Origin: Diploscapter coronatus
Lineage: Eukaryota > Nematoda > Chromadorea > Rhabditida > Rhabditidae
Length of the DNA stretch: 64,000 nucleotides
NCBI GenBank assembly: GCA_964036155.1
Contig: OZ038423.1
Coordinates: 45,833,249-45,897,248 of the forward strand
Reading direction: 5' to 3'
Shown in pieces: positions 3,351-62,047 of the stretch (position 1 is the stretch's first letter; each line of letters begins with the position of its first letter). The translations under genes were made by a program, and so were the position numbers. The notes beneath the pieces were generated by a model, which was not told the origin of the DNA, ran no database searches, and was given only the letters and a program-made list of their open reading frames with translations.

Positions 3351-4763
3351 TCAGATATTAAATTCTCCGACGTCACGCCATTTATTCGTTTGTGGATCGT
3401 ATTCCTCGATTGAATTACAGAAATTCTTAGGTCCAAATTCTTGATATCTAGGTTAACAAATATTTCGTGTAAAGATATGCAAAATTTCAGCTTACCCTCC
3501 GACTGCATACAACTTCCCGTTAGTGGCAACGAGTGAAGGAGAATATCTTGCATGATTCATATCAGCGATTTGAGAAGTTCGGCTCCTAGAAAAATCATCG
3601 GGACATCGGTTAGAAAAGATCAATTTTGTCTATCTTTTTTTCTCTTCATACTATTTCTTAGAGTATCTGGTGTCTTTTTCTAACCAGTATCTTGATGTCC
3701 CGGTGACTTTTTCTAGGAGCCAAGAAAATTGACTTTCAACTGGAGCTGAGGGGTCGAAACACAGACAGGATCTTAATATCCAATCATCCCTAAATAGATA
3801 ATGATGCATTATTTATCATACAAAATTAAACCATTTCGACCCTCTACTTATATAAATTCTTCCATTTAGCGATGCAACTCCGAAAGAAGATTGGTTTTTT
3901 AGGATCTCTCCAATTTCAATCCATTCCCGCTCATCGTCTGATAATCGATATATCTTATTACTAGTATATCCATCAATAACTGAATATTCATAATTATAAT
4001 AATGAGCATGCTATAATGTGACCGTATAAAATCCCATCGCATGTTATTGCTTGAGCCTCCCTAGTTGGAAGAGGAAAAGCAGGTCCTGTTTGCCATTTTC
4101 CATCTATTAAAACCTGAATAAATTATTTCATGGACTTTCATTCGATCTTCTTACATCAACGCGATTCGCGCGTAGATATGTTTTAGGATCTATTCCACCC
4201 AAATAATACAATCTGTCTTTAAAATAAGCCACAAATGCAGCCCTACGCCATTCAGGAGGATCTGGTCCTGCAAAAGATGCAATAAAATTAAACCAATCTA
4301 TTGGCTTTTGTAATGTTACCTCTAGTAATTTTCCGAGTATTCAGGTCAAACATTTCAAACGATTTTTTATAAGATTCAATTGCGAACATCTAAATTTTAC
4401 AAAATTTTCAATGCCAAATAAAATAATCTACCTTATCTTTCGTAATTGCTACTTGATGTGATTCATAATTATAGGTAAATTTCGCAATCTGCTCAACAGA
4501 GTTAGTATGCGAATCAAACAGACAAATTCTTCCTTGTCTAATATCGTTGTTGTTATAAGGCACTAAATACTAAAATTAAATTTCGCTCATACAAGAAATA
4601 TTTTCCTACGATAGAATAAAGTTTTCCTTTCGAGCGCTTTCGGCAGATATTTCTTGATTATTTGCATCGTCCGTTTATTAGTCCAGGCCAACTGTCCCAG
4701 GTCTTTGAATTCGGGATATTCGCAGATCAACAATATAATTTCGACTGGTAGATTGGCTAACAT
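3351..4763 (-). CDS. F-box-like/Kelch-repeat protein, probably disrupted by a MITE
   Basis: The minus-strand gene starts MLANLPVEIILLICEYPEF, an F-box-like sequence (LPxEIILxI...DLxxLxxTNKR). Short exons carrying Kelch blades follow: GRICLFDSHTNSVEQI, RLYYLGG, ILYVIDG, RIYISRG, KLYAVGG and NSIEEYDPQTNKW, about six blades. The stop is TGA at 3351-3353. Introns are 43-50 nt; one has an unusual GTCACA donor, also seen at the same place in the Kelch copies at 51.6-53.9 kb. F-box/Kelch proteins usually recruit substrates to SCF ubiquitin ligases; that role is inferred. A 141-bp inverted-repeat element at 3581-3721 sits inside what is one exon in the other copies. I found no splice pair that removes it and keeps the frame, so the gene may be a recent pseudogene or make a truncated product. 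Confidence 0.65.
3581..3721. mobile_element. 141-bp MITE-like inverted-repeat insertion inside the Kelch gene
   Basis: The ends are inverted repeats starting GGCTCCTAGAAAAA with a shared CGGGACATC core and GGTTAGAAAA inner part. Aligning the Kelch copies at 52.98 kb and 51.82 kb shows no counterpart, so this is an insertion. It brings in-frame stops to the Kelch reading frame. Confidence 0.7.
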
Positions 4764-51589: not shown

Positions 51590-53940
51590 TTATAATCGAA
51601 CTTTATTTGCGTTAAATTTTTCGACTTTTTGCCATTTATTCGTTTGTGGATCGTATTCTTCAATAGCGTCACAAAAGTTTATCGGACAGTATAAACCCTC
51701 ATTTCTTCTCTCGCTACTTTGATATCTAAGTTAACAAATATTTCGTATAACGATATACAAAATCTCAGCTCACCCTCCGATTGCATACAATTTCCCATTG
51801 GCGGCAAGAAGAGAATGATTGTATCTTGCATAATTCATATCAGCGATTCGAGAAATTCGACCGCCAACTGGAGCTGAGAGGTTGAAACACAGACAAGATT
51901 TTAATGCTCTTCCACTAAATATATAATTATACATTATTTATCATACAAAATTAACGACTCCAATCCTCCAGTTATGTAAATTTTTCCATTTAACGATGCA
52001 ACTTCAAAAGAATATCGTAATTCTAGAAGCTCTCCAATTTCAATCCATCCCCGTTCATCGTCTGATAATCGATATATCTTTCTACTTTCACGACCATCAA
52101 TGACTGAATATCCACAATTACAATAATGAATATTTTATAATATGACCGTATAAAATTTCATCGCATGTTATTATTTGAGCACAACCAATTGGAAGAGGAA
52201 AAGCAGGTCCTGTTTGCCATTGTCCATCTATTAAAACCTGAATAAATTATTTTATGGATTTTCATTCGATCTTCTTACATCAACTCGATTCGTATCTTCA
52301 CTGGTGTCAGGATCCCATCCACCCAAGTAATACAATTTGTCTTTGAAATAAGTCACAGATGCCCATTTACGCCATTCAGGAGGATCTGGACCTGTAAAAT
52401 TCTTTGAATCGATCATTCATGAATTTGTTGACAAGACCTCTTGAGATTTGTCGAATATTCAAGTCATATATTTCAAATAACTTCTTATAATTATCAATTC
52501 CAAAAATCTGAGATTCAAGAAATTATTCAAAATAACGAACACAAGAACTTACTTTATTCTGTGTAGTTGCTACTTCATATGACGAATAACAATTGTGCAA
52601 TTTTGCAATCTCTTCGACTGAGCAGGTATATGAATTGAACAAGCATATTCTTCCTTCACTTTTATCATTATTTCGATAATAAACTAAATTATTACGAATC
52701 ATTTCAAAATCTCTTAGCTTTCAACACAATTTCTTACGGTAAAATAAAATTTTATGTAAATTAATTTTTTCGACTTTACGCCATTTATTCGTTTGTGGAA
52801 CGTATTCCTCGATTGAATTACAGAAGTCTCTAAGTCCCGATTTTTGAAATCTAAGTTAACAAATATTTCGTATAAAGATATGCAAAATCTCAACTCACCC
52901 TCCGATTGCATACAATTTTCCATTCGCAGCAACAAGCGAATGATGATGTCTTGCATAATTCATATCAGGGATTCGAGAAATTCGCCTGTCAACTGGAGCT
53001 GAGGGGTCGAAACACAGACAGGATTTGAATATTTTATTAGGATAACTAAATACATAATGATACATGATTTATCATACAAAATTAACGACTCGTATCCTCC
53101 AGTTATGTAAATTTTTCTATTTAACGATGCAACTCCGAATGAAATTCGTTGTTTTGGAATCTTTCCTACTTTAATCCATTCCCGTTCATCGTCTGATAAT
53201 CGATATATCTTTCTACTTTCACGACCATCAATAACTGAATATCCTTGATTACAATAATGAATATGCTATAATGTGACCGTATAAAATTCCATCGCATGTT
53301 ATTGTTCGAACAGATCTAATTGAAAAAGGAAGAGCAGGCCCTGTTTGCCATTTTCCATCTATTAAAACCTGAATGAATTATTTCATGGACTTTCATTCGA
53401 TCTTCTTACATCAACTCGATTTGTCGTTCTTACACTTCCAGGAATGTATCCACCCAAATAATACAATTTATCTCTGAAATAAGCAACAGATGCATATTGA
53501 CGCCATTCAGGAGGATCTGGACCTGTAAAATTCTTTGAATCGATCATTCATGGATTTGTTGAGCAGACCTCTTGAAAGTTGTCGAGTATCCAAGTCATAT
53601 ATTTCAAATGACTTCTTATAATTGTCAATTCCAAAAATCTGAAATCTAAGAAATTATTAAAAATAACGAGCATAAGAATCCACTTTATTCTGCGTAGTTG
53701 CTACTTCATATGGCCAATACCAATTGTCGAATTTTGCAATCTCTTCTACTGAGCGGGTATATGAATTGAACAAGCATATTCTTCCTTCACGATTATCATT
53801 ATTTTCATAATAAACTAAATTATTACGAATCGTTTCAAAGTCTTACTTAGTTTTCAGCATAATTTCTTACGATAGAATAGCATTTTATGCGAATTAGTGA
53901 TATTCCAGGATAATTCAATCAGTGGGATTTTAATTCCTTT
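51590..53940 (-). CDS. Double Kelch-repeat region, probably the C-terminal part of an Hsp70-Kelch fusion
   Basis: Two tandem copies of the same Kelch module run without a stop between them. Unit 1 (53940 to about 52750) opens KGIKIPLIELSWNITNSHKM, then LFYL, GRICLFNSYTRSVEEI, KLYYLGG, ILYVIDG, KIYITGG, KLYAIGG and NSIEEYVPQTNKW. Its last exon runs straight into KINLHKILFY and the donor that starts unit 2, which repeats all blades and ends NANKVRL with TAA at 51590-51592. Introns of 43-50 nt sit at equal places in both units and in the F-box/Kelch gene at 3.4 kb. Each unit would form about six blades. The first exon has no start codon until just before LFYL and begins after an AATTTTAG acceptor in phase 0. 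It therefore most likely receives sequence from the Hsp70 exon that ends at 53988, 47 nt away. Confidence 0.7.
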
Positions 53941-53987
53941 CTAAAATTATTACTTTCATTTTAGTAATGAATTATTTATTTTCAAAC

Positions 53988-55670
53988 CTCCAAAGCATCT
54001 GCAATAATCGCAGCTCCATGAGCTACAGTATCTTCAGGATTGGCATCGAATCTCAATTTTGCCTGGCCAAATTTATGCGACAAAAGTTCTTGAATCTTTG
54101 GAATTCGAGTTGATCCACCAACCAGAATCCATAAATCTCATATTTATATTCAGTGAAAAACATCGGAATCTTGCTTTTCCCAATGATAAACTTACCACAT
54201 TGTCAATTTTTTCTGCTAAGATTCGTGCAGTTCGTAGAGCCCTTTCAACCATTTCCATCGCTTTATCGAATAAATCTTCGCAGAGTTGGTTTAAGTTAGA
54301 TCGCGAAATTTCCACATTCACGCTTGTATCATCATTAATATCCAGCTGCAAAATATTAGTTCCATTTCAGAATCAATCAAATTAACATTTCTTACGTAAA
54401 TATTGTACGATTCCATGTGAAATGACAGAGATTCTTTTGCTTCTTTGCACGCTTTCCGTAATCGTTTCATCCATTTTGATTGTCGCGATATATCGAAGTT
54501 GTCCGATTTCTTCATCTCATCGACTACGTATTTCATTATTCTTTCGTCGAAATCTTGACCGCCTAAATGATATAATTTACAAACCATAAAGTAAGTAGCG
54601 TAATAACAAACCCAAATGAGCATCACCACACACTGACTTCACATCAAATTTTTCTTTTTTGATTTCCACGATACTAATATCTAGGGTTCCTGGAAATTTC
54701 AATCCATAATTAAATGTATGTATTGCCATATAATCAAATGATTGAAGCTAAATCATTGTCTTAATTGTATTTTCTAATTGTCTAGTATTAATTCCTTGAA
54801 AGTCTAAATCTTTTACCCTTAGCGATCATTTGCATACAAAATTTTAGTTTTCTTCCAAAACAACATCATATCCAAATATATTCTAACCTGCTCCCAAATC
54901 AAAGACCATAATCGTTGAGTCAGTTATTCTCATTTGGTTGTAATAAGCAATTGCAGCTGTAATAGGTTCGTGTAGTAAATATTCCAATTCAAGTCCAGCC
55001 ATTTGAGTCGCTCTTTTTGTTGCATTAATCTGCTCTAAATTGAAGAAAGCAGGTATTGTAACAACGGCATCAGTTATTTGTTTATCTAGATATCCCTGAA
55101 CAGATATCTTTAGCTTCCACTATAAAATGATCATTATTTACTTCAGCTGTAGCCTTTAATTTCTTCAAAATTTCCGCCGAAACTTCTTCCGCCTTTATAA
55201 ACCGCTCATTTGGTTTTCCTTTGTTCAACACATATCCACAAAAACCCTAAAATTAGCGTTTTGAAGAAAATCATGAATATCTTGAATATATTACATCCCT
55301 AGTGTCGACGTTAAATGTCCAAAGATATCGATTCTCAGGATTAGGCAAATCAACTATAAATTTCCAGCCAATCAAATTTTTTGAATCTATTTTAATGAGT
55401 TTTATCACAACTTTTCAGAAGTATAATTTTTCTTACCATATAAAATATTCGTTGGGTCTGTATTGCAGTTCAAAGCAGAATTACCCACGAGAATTTCCGA
55501 GCCACAGTAAGTAACTACAGATGAAATTGTTCGCTTGTCTAAAATTTTAGAATATTCTTAGAAAATAATAAAGACAGACCATCATCAGAAGCAATCACAA
55601 AAGGCTGTCCGTCTTTAATCACGGAAACACGTGAATATGTCGTGCCCAAGTCGATGCCGATATAGACCAT
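53988..55670 (-). CDS. Hsp70-family ATPase domain (copy 1), N-terminal part of a probable Hsp70-Kelch fusion
   Basis: Starts [20 protein letters not shown] (phosphate 1 loop with Asp and Thr). It continues with DSKNLIGWKF, VVTIPAFFNLEQINATKRA, LLHEPITAAIAYY, IMVFDLGAG joined to TLDISIVEIK (phosphate 2; one Gly replaced by Ala), GDAHLG joined to GQDFDERI, and LVGGSTRIPKIQELL (adenosine motif). It ends EDTVAHGAAIIADALE at 53988. No Hsp70 substrate-binding domain follows. If not spliced it stops after one more codon (GTT TGA). If that GTTTGA is a donor, a 47-nt intron joins it in frame to the Kelch exon. The intron at 54129-54195 has a good GTAAGT donor but the expected acceptor AG reads GG, so this copy may be damaged. 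ATP-binding residues are otherwise kept. Confidence 0.75.
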
Positions 55671-56485
55671 TGCTTATTCTTTAATTTTTTTAAATAAAAA
55701 AATTTGTACTGATTTAGGAAATAAATTCTGCATTCATGCGCAAATGAATAAAAAATCAATAATAATTAGGAGCAAGAAAGCAAGCTTTTACATTGAATGA
55801 TAATTGATAAGAGAGTAGTGATGTCGAATGTTTCGCGAGAAAGAAAATCTTATCATAAAATGAATAGTTTTGACAAATAATTGAGAATTAGAAATAAATA
55901 ACTGAAGGGATTTTTAATTGGTTGAACAATAATCTGCTCAATTTCGAATGCCATCCAAAATGTCGTCTCGCATTCAAATACAACATTCTCAGGAAGGATA
56001 GAGAGTAAAAAGTTTACATTTTAAGAAATATTTTAGAGAATATTTATTTCGGTTGCAATTATTCCTCATTACTTCTGGATGTCTTCGAGAGTTATCTGTA
56101 TCATGTTTGTTGAAAGTTTTAATAATAGTTGAATACAGATAATATTCATAAAATATAATATGTCAAATAAAAGGGCTAGATGGTATTAAGCTGCATTATT
56201 CAAACTTCAATCTTCCTGCCCCTGGTCTCAGCATTTAAAATTTGAGTTATTTATTGATTAAAAATATAACCATTTTGAGAAAATATATAGAAAGTAGATC
56301 GCAAGGGAGTAAGGGGCTTCTGATGATCGTCCTCCCTAGGTCTGTTTTTCACAGATTGTGCTTTCGATTTATTCTAAATTATATATTTAATTTATTTAAA
56401 AAAGAAATTCAAGTATTTCCTAACCTTACGTTATGTAATTATTTGCTAGATCAGTTCCAAAATATTTCATTACAAATAAATAGCT
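55671..56485. other. Shared 5' flank of Hsp70 copy 1 and 3' flank of the coiled-coil unit
   Basis: 55633-55933 looks identical to 61100-61400. 56035-56115 matches the 3' UTRs of both Kelch genes. 56324-56341 repeats the block at 51384-51400. No ORF is supported here. Confidence 0.7.
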
Positions 56486-58963: not shown

Positions 58964-61137
58964 CTCGATTGATTTCGCAAAAATCGCCGCTCCATGGGCC
59001 ACTGCTTCATCAGGATTGATATCAAATTTTAGCCTATTCTTTCCAAATTTTCCTGCCATAATTTGCTTTATTTTAGGAATTCGAGATGAACCACCTGCTA
59101 GAATCTAAAAATCATAGAAAGCTTATTTTCCGATTAATTTTGAGGCCTGACAAACCACATAATCAATTTCTGATTCTGATAAACGTGCGCTATTCAATGC
59201 GCTGTTCACTGTTATCATGACCTTTTCGAATAAGTCACTACACAATTCTTCAAATTTCGTTCTTGACAAAACGACATTCATTTCATTGTTGTCATTTATT
59301 TCCAACTAAAATTAACTATTAAAATTATAAATAGACAAATTCTACATGAATATTATCTGAATCTCTGACGGATAGCGCTTCTTTGACCGTTCGACATTTA
59401 TCACGCAATCGTTTGATCAGTTTAGGCTTTTTCATAATATCGTATTCGGATTCATTTTTAAACTCTCTCAATGCATAGTTCATAATTTTCCCATCGAAAT
59501 CTTGACCCCCTAAATTTGGATTATTTTTAAAAAGTTGAATTTCCTTTTGTATCGTGTAATGAAGAAGAGAATATTTATGCAACCCTTTGCAAGTCGCTCT
59601 TTTCACTGCAATCAAAGCTTCGCCCATTCAATTTAGCCTTTTTCGAATTTTTTATTAATGTTTTTGCCATTTTTCGTTCATAATTCTCATAAAATTAGTT
59701 AGATAAGTGATCAACTAACCTACCTAGATTGAAAACCGAATATTTTATCAGTTTCGACAGTATTTCATCCATATAGATAGTAGTAACGACAAATAATCAC
59801 ATCGAAATAAATAAACGCGTTGGGTTTTCCATCTAGATAAGCTAATTTGTCAATTATCCAACAATTTGGATGATAATTATAAACTGAAAATATTAAAAAC
59901 ACTAATAAAAGCTCGAAAAGCGGCGAAAATAAGCCATAATGAGTGGACGGAGCCTTGATTACACTAAAAAGAGCAACTTGCAAAAGGGCTACAGGAATGT
60001 TCTCTTCTCCATTACGCAATATACCAATCTGTGGGTCTCCTGCAGCACCTTTGGTCGCGATTTCACCATTCATTATTTCAATTATGCTGATATCGAGCGT
60101 TCCTAAGTTAATATTGTCTTTAATTTCTAGTAAAATTCTAACCCCCTCCAAAGTCGAATATCAAAATCTTCGAATTATCTAATCCTATCTTCTCTTGATA
60201 AGCATACGCAACGGCTTTAGACTCTTCAACTAATTCTTTCAAATCGAGTCCAGCTAACTCTACAGCTTTTCTTGTGGCTGACTTCTCTTCATATTTAAAA
60301 CTCACAGGAATTGCAACAACTACTCCTAGTATATCCTTGCTCAAATAGTTCTAGATAAAAGAACTGCTTATCAAAAACAATTAATTTACAGCCATTCATA
60401 CCTCTGCCAAAAATTTTAAATGCTTGAGAATTTCAGCTGAAACTTCTTCTGCTTTTATAAACCGTTCATTTGGTTTTCCTTTATTTAATACATATCCACA
60501 AATCTCCTAAAATTAGCGTTTTGAAGAAAATCATGAATATCTTGAATATATTACATCTTTCGTGTCGACGTTAAATGTCCAAAGATTTCGATTCTCAGCA
60601 ATGGCCAAATTATAAGGAACATGCCATCCAATCAGCCTTTTCGAATCTTAAAATATACAGTGGCAGCAAAAGTTTGGAAGCGAACTTAATTTTTTCAGCA
60701 CCCATTTCATCCATTAGTCATGAGCCAATTCGAATAATAAAATTTTGGCATACTAATGAGATTTGATCTTATCTAAGATTATTCAAACTTGAAACAACAT
60801 CTATTCACGATAGGTTGATGGATTGAGTTTGCAATATTTTGATTTGTTTCCAAACTTTTGCTCTCCATTGTAGATAAAAATAAATAAAAGCCATCCTACC
60901 ATATAAGATATTGGACAAATCTGTATCGCAGCTTATAGCTGAGCTTCCAACAATAATGCCATGATTAGAATAAGCGACTACGGATGGAGTCGTGTAACTA
61001 CCTAAAATATGCTATTTAAAATAAAAATAATGAGCTATAAAGTTGCCATGATCGTTATGAATCGTCACAGGTCGACCATTTTCGACGATCGCAACGCACG
61101 AATATGTCGTGCCCAAGTCGATGCCGATATAGACCAT
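58964..61137 (-). CDS. Hsp70-family ATPase domain (copy 2), N-terminal part of a possible Hsp70-coiled-coil fusion
   Basis: Starts [20 protein letters not shown]. Then [75 protein letters not shown] joined to [30 protein letters not shown] and [18 protein letters not shown]. It ends [19 protein letters not shown] at 58964. The Thr, Asp, Lys and Glu of the ATPase site are kept. No substrate-binding domain follows. Intron 1 is GC-AG: a G|GCAACT donor at the position where copy 1 has G|GTCTGT. Two introns carry mobile elements (59579-59994 and 60658-60870). The 3' junction is either GAG|GTTATC spliced to the coiled-coil exon in phase 0, or read-through to VILPIENL and a stop. Confidence 0.75.
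59579..59994. mobile_element. 416-bp MITE-like element in an Hsp70 copy 2 intron
   Basis: Terminal inverted repeats of about 52 bp: 59579-59630 and 59941-59994 share CCTTTGCAAGT(C/T)GCTCTTTT and CAATCAA(A/G)GCT. The rest of the 530-bp intron is filled by it. Copy 1 has no counterpart in its own intron here, which is only 47 nt. Confidence 0.75.
60658..60870. mobile_element. Tc1/mariner-type MITE in an Hsp70 copy 2 intron
   Basis: The ends are inverted repeats CAGTGGCAGCAAAAGTTTGG and, inverted, CCAAACTTTTGCTCTCCATTG, flanked on both sides by TA. TA duplication and a CAGTGG..AAAAGTTTGG end are typical of Tc1/mariner derivatives. No transposase is present (213 bp). Confidence 0.8.
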
Positions 61138-62047
61138 TGCTTATTCTTTAATTTTTTTAAATAAAAAAATTTGTACTGATTTAGGAAATAAATTCTGCAT
61201 TCATGCGCAAATGAATAAAAAATCAATAATAATTAGGAGCAAGAAAGCAAGCTTTTACATTGAATGATAATTGATAAGAGAGTAGTGATGTCGAATGTTT
61301 CGCGAGAAAGAAAATCTTATCATAAAATGAATAGTTTTGACAAATAATTGAGAATTAGAAATAAATAACTGAAGGGATTTTTAATTGGTTGAACAATAAT
61401 TTGCTGAATTTCGAATGTTATCTCGCATTCAAATGAAACAAGCTCAGGAGGAAGAGAGTAAGATGCTTTAGTAAATATGGAATGTTTATAGAAAGGCAAT
61501 TATGAAAGATAAGATGGGATGACCGTTCATAAAATAAAAACATTCAAATGAAAAAATAACGCAGCTAGGCGATATATGAAAGACAAAATTTGAAATAGAG
61601 CAATGAATTATCATTTTTCTCTCAAATTTGATGTTCAAATCAGAATATGGCAATTTAAGGAGAAATGTGAATATTGAAAAAGTAAGCAGAATGTTCCTTC
61701 TTAAAATAATGATTTGGAAGTGAAAACAACCCTATTTAGGCGACATATGTATCAAGTTGAGATTTCGTATCGAAGATATACAATTGAAGCTAAAAATAAG
61801 TGAGGAATAAAAAGAAAAATGACCATTTATGGAAGACAAGAATTGAGAACTGAATGAGAAAGATAAAGAATTTGGCAAATGAACCCTAATTTTTCAGCGA
61901 TAGTGGACGCCCTTCACATCGGGGACGAGTATTCGAGCTAGGAAAAAGTTGATCTTCACGAAAAAATACGCGATTTTCTGACATAAAGGCTTCTTTAATT
62001 AGCATTTTCGTGAAATCTTGAAATGTTCATTTCCGAATTTGGCTACA
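61138..62047. other. Intergenic: Hsp70 copy 2 promoter and upstream of the next plus gene
   Basis: 61100-61400 looks identical to 55633-55933. 61730-61880 resembles 4840-5000 upstream of the F-box/Kelch gene. A TTTCGCGAGAAAGAAAA block at 61297-61313 loosely resembles a heat-shock element, but the nTTCnnGAAn register is not exact. Confidence 0.6.

Follow-up and report, generated by a model that had tools for sequence, protein, structure and literature searches.

Introduction

HSPA13/STCH is an Hsp70 ATPase that lacks a substrate-binding domain and is found as a single-domain protein of the endoplasmic reticulum. Here we describe a gene, and the family to which it belongs, in which an Hsp70 ATPase domain (nucleotide-binding domain, NBD) that likewise lacks the substrate-binding domain is almost certainly fused, as judged from the sequence, to a region of Kelch repeats. 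The gene lies in a 64,000-nucleotide stretch of the nematode Diploscapter coronatus (contig OZ038423.1 of assembly GCA_964036155.1, positions 45,833,249 to 45,897,248), the whole of which was analysed and is referred to below as the window.

The Hsp70 genes of Diploscapter are known to be numerous. In the main text of Weinstein et al. (2019; PMC6872716) a cluster of 59 Diploscapter Hsp70 genes (cluster III) is reported with positive selection at its root, and the expansion is interpreted as an adaptation to heat. The terms 'kelch', 'substrate binding' and 'domain architecture' each occur 0 times in that main text, as do Hsp70 and Kelch in the main text of the D. coronatus genome paper (PMC5483258). 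No description of an Hsp70-Kelch architecture was found in the open-access literature searched; proteins of D. pachys with both Hsp70 and Kelch domains are already present in public databases.

Results

Predicted structure of the gene

Coordinates are given as window positions, and the fusion gene, a second NBD gene and an F-box-Kelch gene are all on the minus strand. Spliced reverse-strand translation of 55670-51590 yields a stop-free, 24-exon model of 952 codons, the introns of which are mostly 41-56 nt long, with a single one of 198 nt, and in which an Hsp70 ATPase domain, a linker exon and two Kelch modules succeed one another. Pfam HSP70 covers residues 4-382 (3e-99; profile positions 2-376 of 599) and Pfam Kelch covers the remainder of the model after residue 382 (Kelch_1, 3.1e-42); together with the stop-free model these matches bear out the junction of an Hsp70 ATPase with a Kelch region claimed in a preliminary description of this DNA. 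None of the 16 Pfam families assigned to the model at E 0.1 is F-box, BTB or BACK, and an Rfam scan returned nothing at gathering thresholds.

The Hsp70 part (NBD1, 53988..55670) has 382 residues in nine exons (55670-55580, 55538-55437, 55386-55295, 55246-55142, 55095-54888, 54689-54612, 54562-54396, 54345-54192 and 54136-53988); the solved chains closest to it in sequence are Hsp70 NBDs, and its last residues are ...TVAHGAAIIADALE, at 53988. It is followed by the hinge intron (intron 9, 53941..53987; GTTTGA..AATTTTAG), which has the length of 47 nt and the phase 0 originally described. The linker exon (exon 10, 53871..53940) encodes KGIKIPLIELSWNITNSHKMLFY plus one nucleotide, its LFY end being the first propeller strand. 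Module 1 (52757..53889; 271 aa) and module 2 (51590..52756; 282 aa, stop TAA at 51592-51590) have a common intron pattern and six blades each, counted by eye in the sequence, in agreement with the tandem six-blade modules first proposed.

Conservation of the join

An open exon 10 is uninformative on its own, since 26% of 23-codon frames drawn at random from the minus strand of the window are open as well; the evidence for a fused gene comes instead from its relatives. The junction DNA was searched against the window's own genome, a three-contig assembly of 169.7 Mb whose two large contigs (87.7 and 82.0 Mb) would fit two chromosome copies of a Diploscapter. With 40 of 572 candidates scored there are at least 44 matches. 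Thirty loci with the junction, the window's own included, were fetched: Kelch sequence of at least 100 aa lies downstream on the same strand in every one, an NBD of at least 100 aa lies upstream in all except L045, and NBD, hinge, linker and Kelch are kept together in 29 of the 30 at this same minimum length for each domain. In 25 loci an uninterrupted linker exon stays in frame from the hinge intron to the Kelch splice site. Their hinge introns measure 43-49 nt, with 21 GT and 4 GC donors and with TCAG (22), TTAG (2) or TAAG (1) acceptors; the linker exon leads into LFY-like residues plus one base, after which comes GT, and the frame is maintained at each of the linker lengths encountered (18, 23, 28, 35, 38 and 39 codons). 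The other five comprise L039, L046, L048 and L059, which have a second hinge copy in the linker, and L045, which has stops. Across 300 pairs the mean ratio of non-synonymous to synonymous substitution rates (dN/dS) is 0.33 for the linker exon (bootstrap over sequences 0.26-0.41) and 0.31 for the last NBD exon; by this measure purifying selection acts on the linker exon in the reading frame of the NBD. A 33-base signature (acceptor plus linker start, up to 3 mismatches) occurs at 134 sites, 67 on each strand, against 0 for a reversed control; these sites are not equivalent to genes, tandem hinges being counted twice, and about 100 places are listed.

Proteins with both domains, a search for which had been proposed as a check in the preliminary description, were found: the four best hits of a protein search with the Kelch part are D. 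pachys proteins combining Hsp70 and Kelch. Our D. pachys set consists of 43 proteins from the matches listed, part of them from the best 120 of 7,790. Of these 43, 37 are NBD proteins, and a word search found Kelch words in 20 of the 37. One of the 20, P0025, is arranged differently, with kinase, Kelch and Hsp70 in that order; some of the other 17 NBD proteins resemble ordinary Hsp70s. The D. pachys hinge AIIADALE is commonly followed by a linker of the form K-G-I-x-x-P-L-I and then by LFY and Kelch, and the fused model is collinear across the join with P0002 (75%, 447 columns) and P0004 (51%, 611 columns). When compared with 16 trimmed D. pachys linkers, the exon 10 peptide has a mean score of 49.6 against a maximum of 27.5 for 30,501 stop-free 23-residue window peptides taken with the family loci masked, none of which matches the linkers as well; the first 17 residues, without the LFY end, score 37.8 against a control maximum of 25.2. 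This control replaced an earlier one, in which 3 of 4,000 peptides reached the observed score and which probably sampled the window's Kelch genes and used longer D. pachys stretches. Among the 30 loci compared, the linkers of L047 and L053 are protein-identical to those of P0026 and P0055 of D. pachys, the matched pieces of these pairs being 54-95% identical; a Diploscapter other than D. pachys is the likelier source on this comparison.

Three further features of the junction were recorded. The GC donors belong to L033, L038, L041 and L055, a seemingly high GC-AG share for one position. Hinge and linker are tandemly duplicated within the four loci with a second hinge copy. One signature occurs three times at a spacing of about 2.5 kb (G000:C2:10881791, 10884301 and 10886810).

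Features kept and lost in the Hsp70 domain

Under the residue numbering that we assume for the ATP site, D10, T13, K71, E175, D199, T204, D206, G338 and R342 are present in the window copy, in which G202 is A, D366 is E and R171 is Y. The 29 D. pachys relatives tested, some of which lack parts, retain most of the ATP-site residues checked; D366 is variable among them (D in 11, E in 13 and N in 2; n=26). R171, which we take to be the J-protein-docking arginine of Hsc70, is replaced in 26 of the 27 D. pachys relatives with a letter at this position, compared with 23 R and 1 K in 24 comparison Hsp70s. The substrate-binding domain and the lid are missing, the HSP70 profile match stopping at 376 of 599 with Kelch next, and by eye the hinge leads into KGIxxPLI instead of a hydrophobic linker of the DVLLLDV type. 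The interdomain-linker pattern D-V/I-x-P-L-S-L-G gives 0 matches in the fused model, P0001, P0004 and P0026, a weak negative given that it found 3 of 10 comparison Hsp70s. Because both the substrate-binding domain and the presumed docking arginine are gone, a canonical Hsp70 chaperone cycle is unlikely for the fused protein, and the Kelch region is only a putative client-binding part of a chaperone.

Kelch modules and linker

The two modules share 74% protein identity (dS 0.25, dN/dS 0.64) and their introns are 89% identical; on this comparison they are a tandem duplication. Structural matches of a relative include 7ona, a designed propeller with six blades (rank 40, template-modelling score 0.70 by target). 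In the model of P0001, whose NBD is incomplete and whose Kelch is truncated, strands of five blades and part of a sixth are formed, the LFY end of the linker is strand 242-249 and the linker stretch 215-237 scores below 50. The AlphaFold2 model of P0004 has a predicted local distance difference test (pLDDT) score that is mostly >=90 in the NBD blocks, falls below 50 at 387-443 and 445-447, from the hinge into the first blade, and is 62-94 by blocks in later blades; P0004 is also truncated in its Kelch region and its first blade is possibly poor for that reason. These models suggest that the linker is a flexible tether.

Between modules 1 and 2 the DA and BC loops differ at 31 of 73 positions and the remainder at 38 of 196 (p 2.5e-4), with dN/dS of 1.31 and 0.40 respectively; in comparisons of the modules with the F-box copy, the loops have dN/dS of 0.86 and 0.95 and the remainder 0.26 and 0.24. 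As far as these substitutions indicate, the DA and BC loops are less constrained than the rest of the Kelch region.

Both modules and the F-box-Kelch copy have a non-consensus donor, GTCACA or GTCATA, at the same Kelch intron (53277-53235, 52146-52104 and 4022-3980).

Alternative readings of the locus

Several observations weigh against a functional fused gene, some of them at the hinge itself. Without splicing, the ATPase reading frame closes at ALEV-TGA and is closely followed by AATAAA; the TGA and the AATAAA both lie within intron 9, the sole one of 23 introns to contain AATAAA. An in-frame stop directly follows the hinge in 27 of 30 loci, intron 9 contains AATAAA in 19 of 30, and four D. 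pachys predictions terminate in LEV at a hinge of this kind (P0050, P0051 and P0057, and P0047 following a second copy of the hinge). Two genes could be read from this: an ATPase on its own, terminating in ALEV-stop, and, from an ATG in exon 10, a headless Kelch gene. That exon 10 has no usable start codon, as the preliminary description held, was too strong, since an in-frame ATG exists at 53883-53881, which supplies the M in HKMLFY and coincides with the first propeller strand; what stands is that it is not a conserved start, the position being I, V, T or another residue in relatives. A Kelch gene from this ATG was rejected on the ground that the sequence upstream of it, the 17 residues scored above, is conserved protein. 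The linker is moreover under selection in frame with the NBD, and the supposed genes are only 47 nt apart and both kept in 29 of 30 loci, all of which makes two separate genes very improbable. The fused gene is strongly favoured over this alternative, which the preliminary description had left standing, because protein-level conservation of the linker exon extends from this genome to D. pachys, in addition to its 25 open and 29 joint loci. The same signals may also indicate two products of one gene, with splicing of intron 9 giving NBD-Kelch and its retention, with intronic polyadenylation, giving NBD only, as a regulatory choice; the stops and AATAAA do lie beside conserved splice sites, but the stop overlaps the splice donor hexamer and so is perhaps kept by splicing alone, and the whole of intron 9 is merely ~15% diverged. 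We regard such a regulated choice as possible but rather unlikely, although the hinge stop, AATAAA and D. pachys LEV ends mean that ATPase-only isoforms (ALEV-stop) may exist. Also to be set against the fused gene, an open frame was the condition by which the 25 loci were selected, and paralogues are not independent; and the D. pachys models are predictions, some Kelch exons of which were seemingly skipped or read out of frame. Out-of-frame D. pachys endings of the RYIDYQTMNGNGLK type can be read from the window's Kelch DNA in a different frame. The suggestion that the fusion is an artefact of D. pachys gene prediction is answered by the DNA of the 30 loci from the window's own genome.

The remaining points against the fused gene concern the window copy and the Kelch loops. 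The acceptor of intron 8 (54137..54191) is GG; the motif could be read in 18 other loci, all of which have AG, and was unreadable in 11 of the 30. This lesion is absent from the first reading of the sequence; with the consensus acceptor lost, the model takes a weak donor and acceptor, GTTTAT..ATGAG (54191-54137), the only in-frame alternative found, which adds 4 residues (VNLW). The donor of intron 11 is also weak, GTGGAT, where its counterpart in module 2 is GTAAGT, and Gly202 is changed to Ala and Asp366 to Glu. The window copy may thus be impaired though the family is sound. Decay of this copy to a pseudogene of a functional family would account for the two splice sites and the change at Gly202, and among the matches scored the best other full-length junction is 85% identical, partial matches reaching 93% over 218 bases; yet one open frame runs through all 24 modelled exons, and Kelch dN/dS, at 0.64 between modules, is 0.39 against the F-box copy. 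We consider decay a real possibility that falls somewhat short of likely, and expression of the window copy as a fusion, at least at the hinge, to be probable. Regarding the loops, the ligand-binding face of Kelch is assigned on our assumption that it corresponds to that of KEAP1, and ligand-face and bottom-face loops do not differ significantly (p 0.30; against the F-box copy 0.09 and 0.16). Loop dN/dS exceeds 1 in just one of three comparisons, leaving positive selection unsupported, and the loop test was conceived after the alignment had been viewed. For the family as a whole, an ordinary expansion of chaperones in adaptation to heat is improbable, given that the model lacks a substrate-binding domain, the presumed docking arginine is absent from 26 of 27 relatives and retained or replaced by lysine in the comparison Hsp70s (23 R and 1 K of 24), and Kelch comes next in 30 of 30 fetched loci. 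Such an expansion, as published for cluster III, would have in its favour the 59 Diploscapter genes and the positive selection at the cluster root, but the heat-induction passages considered from that paper are about Halicephalobus (PMC6872716).

Neighbouring genes and other Kelch partners

The second Hsp70 NBD gene (NBD2, 58964..61137) belongs to the same family and ends SIE at a hinge-like donor. Its model depends on GC as the donor of intron 1 and on a poor acceptor, AGCAAG, and from its sequence NBD2 may be impaired too. At the hinge, SIE stands before GTTATC; 279 nt on, after TTTTAG and in phase 0, begins an intronless minus-strand open reading frame of 732 aa (58684-56486) with a Pfam ANC-1 spectrin-like repeat (3.8e-9) and no protein-database match at E 0.001 among 7,993 candidates scored. 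An inverted repeat was seen by eye in the gap between NBD2 and this reading frame, which is an open candidate for a second fusion partner, that of NBD2. The 5' flanks of the two NBD genes (55671-56016 and 61138-61470) are identical at 322 of 332 aligned bases, up to the ATG, though the proteins have diverged, which suggests recent gene conversion or promoter duplication.

The Kelch part of the F-box-Kelch gene (3351..4763) belongs to the same family and is again joined at the LFY strand; the F-box-like match is weak (Pfam 1.2e-4), its 22.2 bits falling short of the curated cut-off of 24.3. An insert of ~150 bp with inverted-repeat ends (~3730-3581, by eye) lies within a Kelch exon and seemingly interrupts this F-box-Kelch copy. 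Kinase genes are a further partner: the same Kelch family is found ~0.41-0.43 kb downstream on the same strand in three of four kinase loci fetched (L061, L063 and L064), and the D. pachys predictions P0022, P0023 and P0028 are kinase-Kelch fusions. We did not accept the kinase-Kelch fusion as equally firm, owing to the gap of ~0.42 kb from the last kinase exon to Kelch.

Discussion

We lean, with moderate confidence, to the view that this is a large, apparently lineage-restricted NBD-linker-Kelch family in which Kelch has replaced the substrate-binding domain, with recognition by Kelch and the ATPase as effector. The fused protein would not run the peptide-gripping cycle that J-proteins drive. 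Its Kelch propellers would select a partner protein through their faster-changing loops, and the ATPase domain would be a tethered effector or a nucleotide-dependent docking switch, comparable to the F-box in the window's F-box-Kelch gene, while a linker of variable length, probably flexible, would tie it to one or two propellers. Considered alone, this recognition-plus-effector role is put forward tentatively and may well prove wrong. The Kelch family shared with F-box and kinase genes would imply one recognition module behind several effectors, and diversification of the Kelch face over many copies would fit a need to recognise partners that change, such as proteins of pathogens or selfish elements. 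It is a doubtful extension of this idea, but a conceivable one, that the Hsp70 ATPase is an interchangeable effector arm of a large Kelch repertoire in which the propeller loops direct every copy to a protein of its own, serving ATP-gated intracellular recognition, perhaps in innate immunity or the control of selfish elements, and has been mistaken for a heat-shock expansion.

The family offers a natural test of what an Hsp70 ATPase is capable of without a substrate domain or contact with J-proteins. It also bears on the claim of heat adaptation in Diploscapter, in that counts of Hsp70 domains conceal copies that are not full chaperones, and a family published as extra heat-shock chaperones may serve quite another function.

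Among known systems, HSPA13/STCH resembles the window family in having an Hsp70 ATPase domain without a substrate-binding domain, and differs from it in that it is not known to have Kelch or to form a large family. F-box-Kelch and BTB-Kelch adaptors such as KEAP1 resemble the window gene in combining a six-bladed propeller with an effector domain, although here the effector is an Hsp70 ATPase domain. The kinase-Kelch genes of Diploscapter have the same Kelch family with another catalytic domain, and their fusion is less certain than that of NBD and Kelch because of the gap in three loci. Cluster III, as presented in the main text of its description (PMC6872716), is very probably the same family, both being expanded groups of Hsp70 homologues specific to Diploscapter, an identification that is drawn by inference and not by accession. 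Its genes are described there as heat-shock chaperones, whereas the window family is without the substrate-binding domain and has Kelch propellers in its place.

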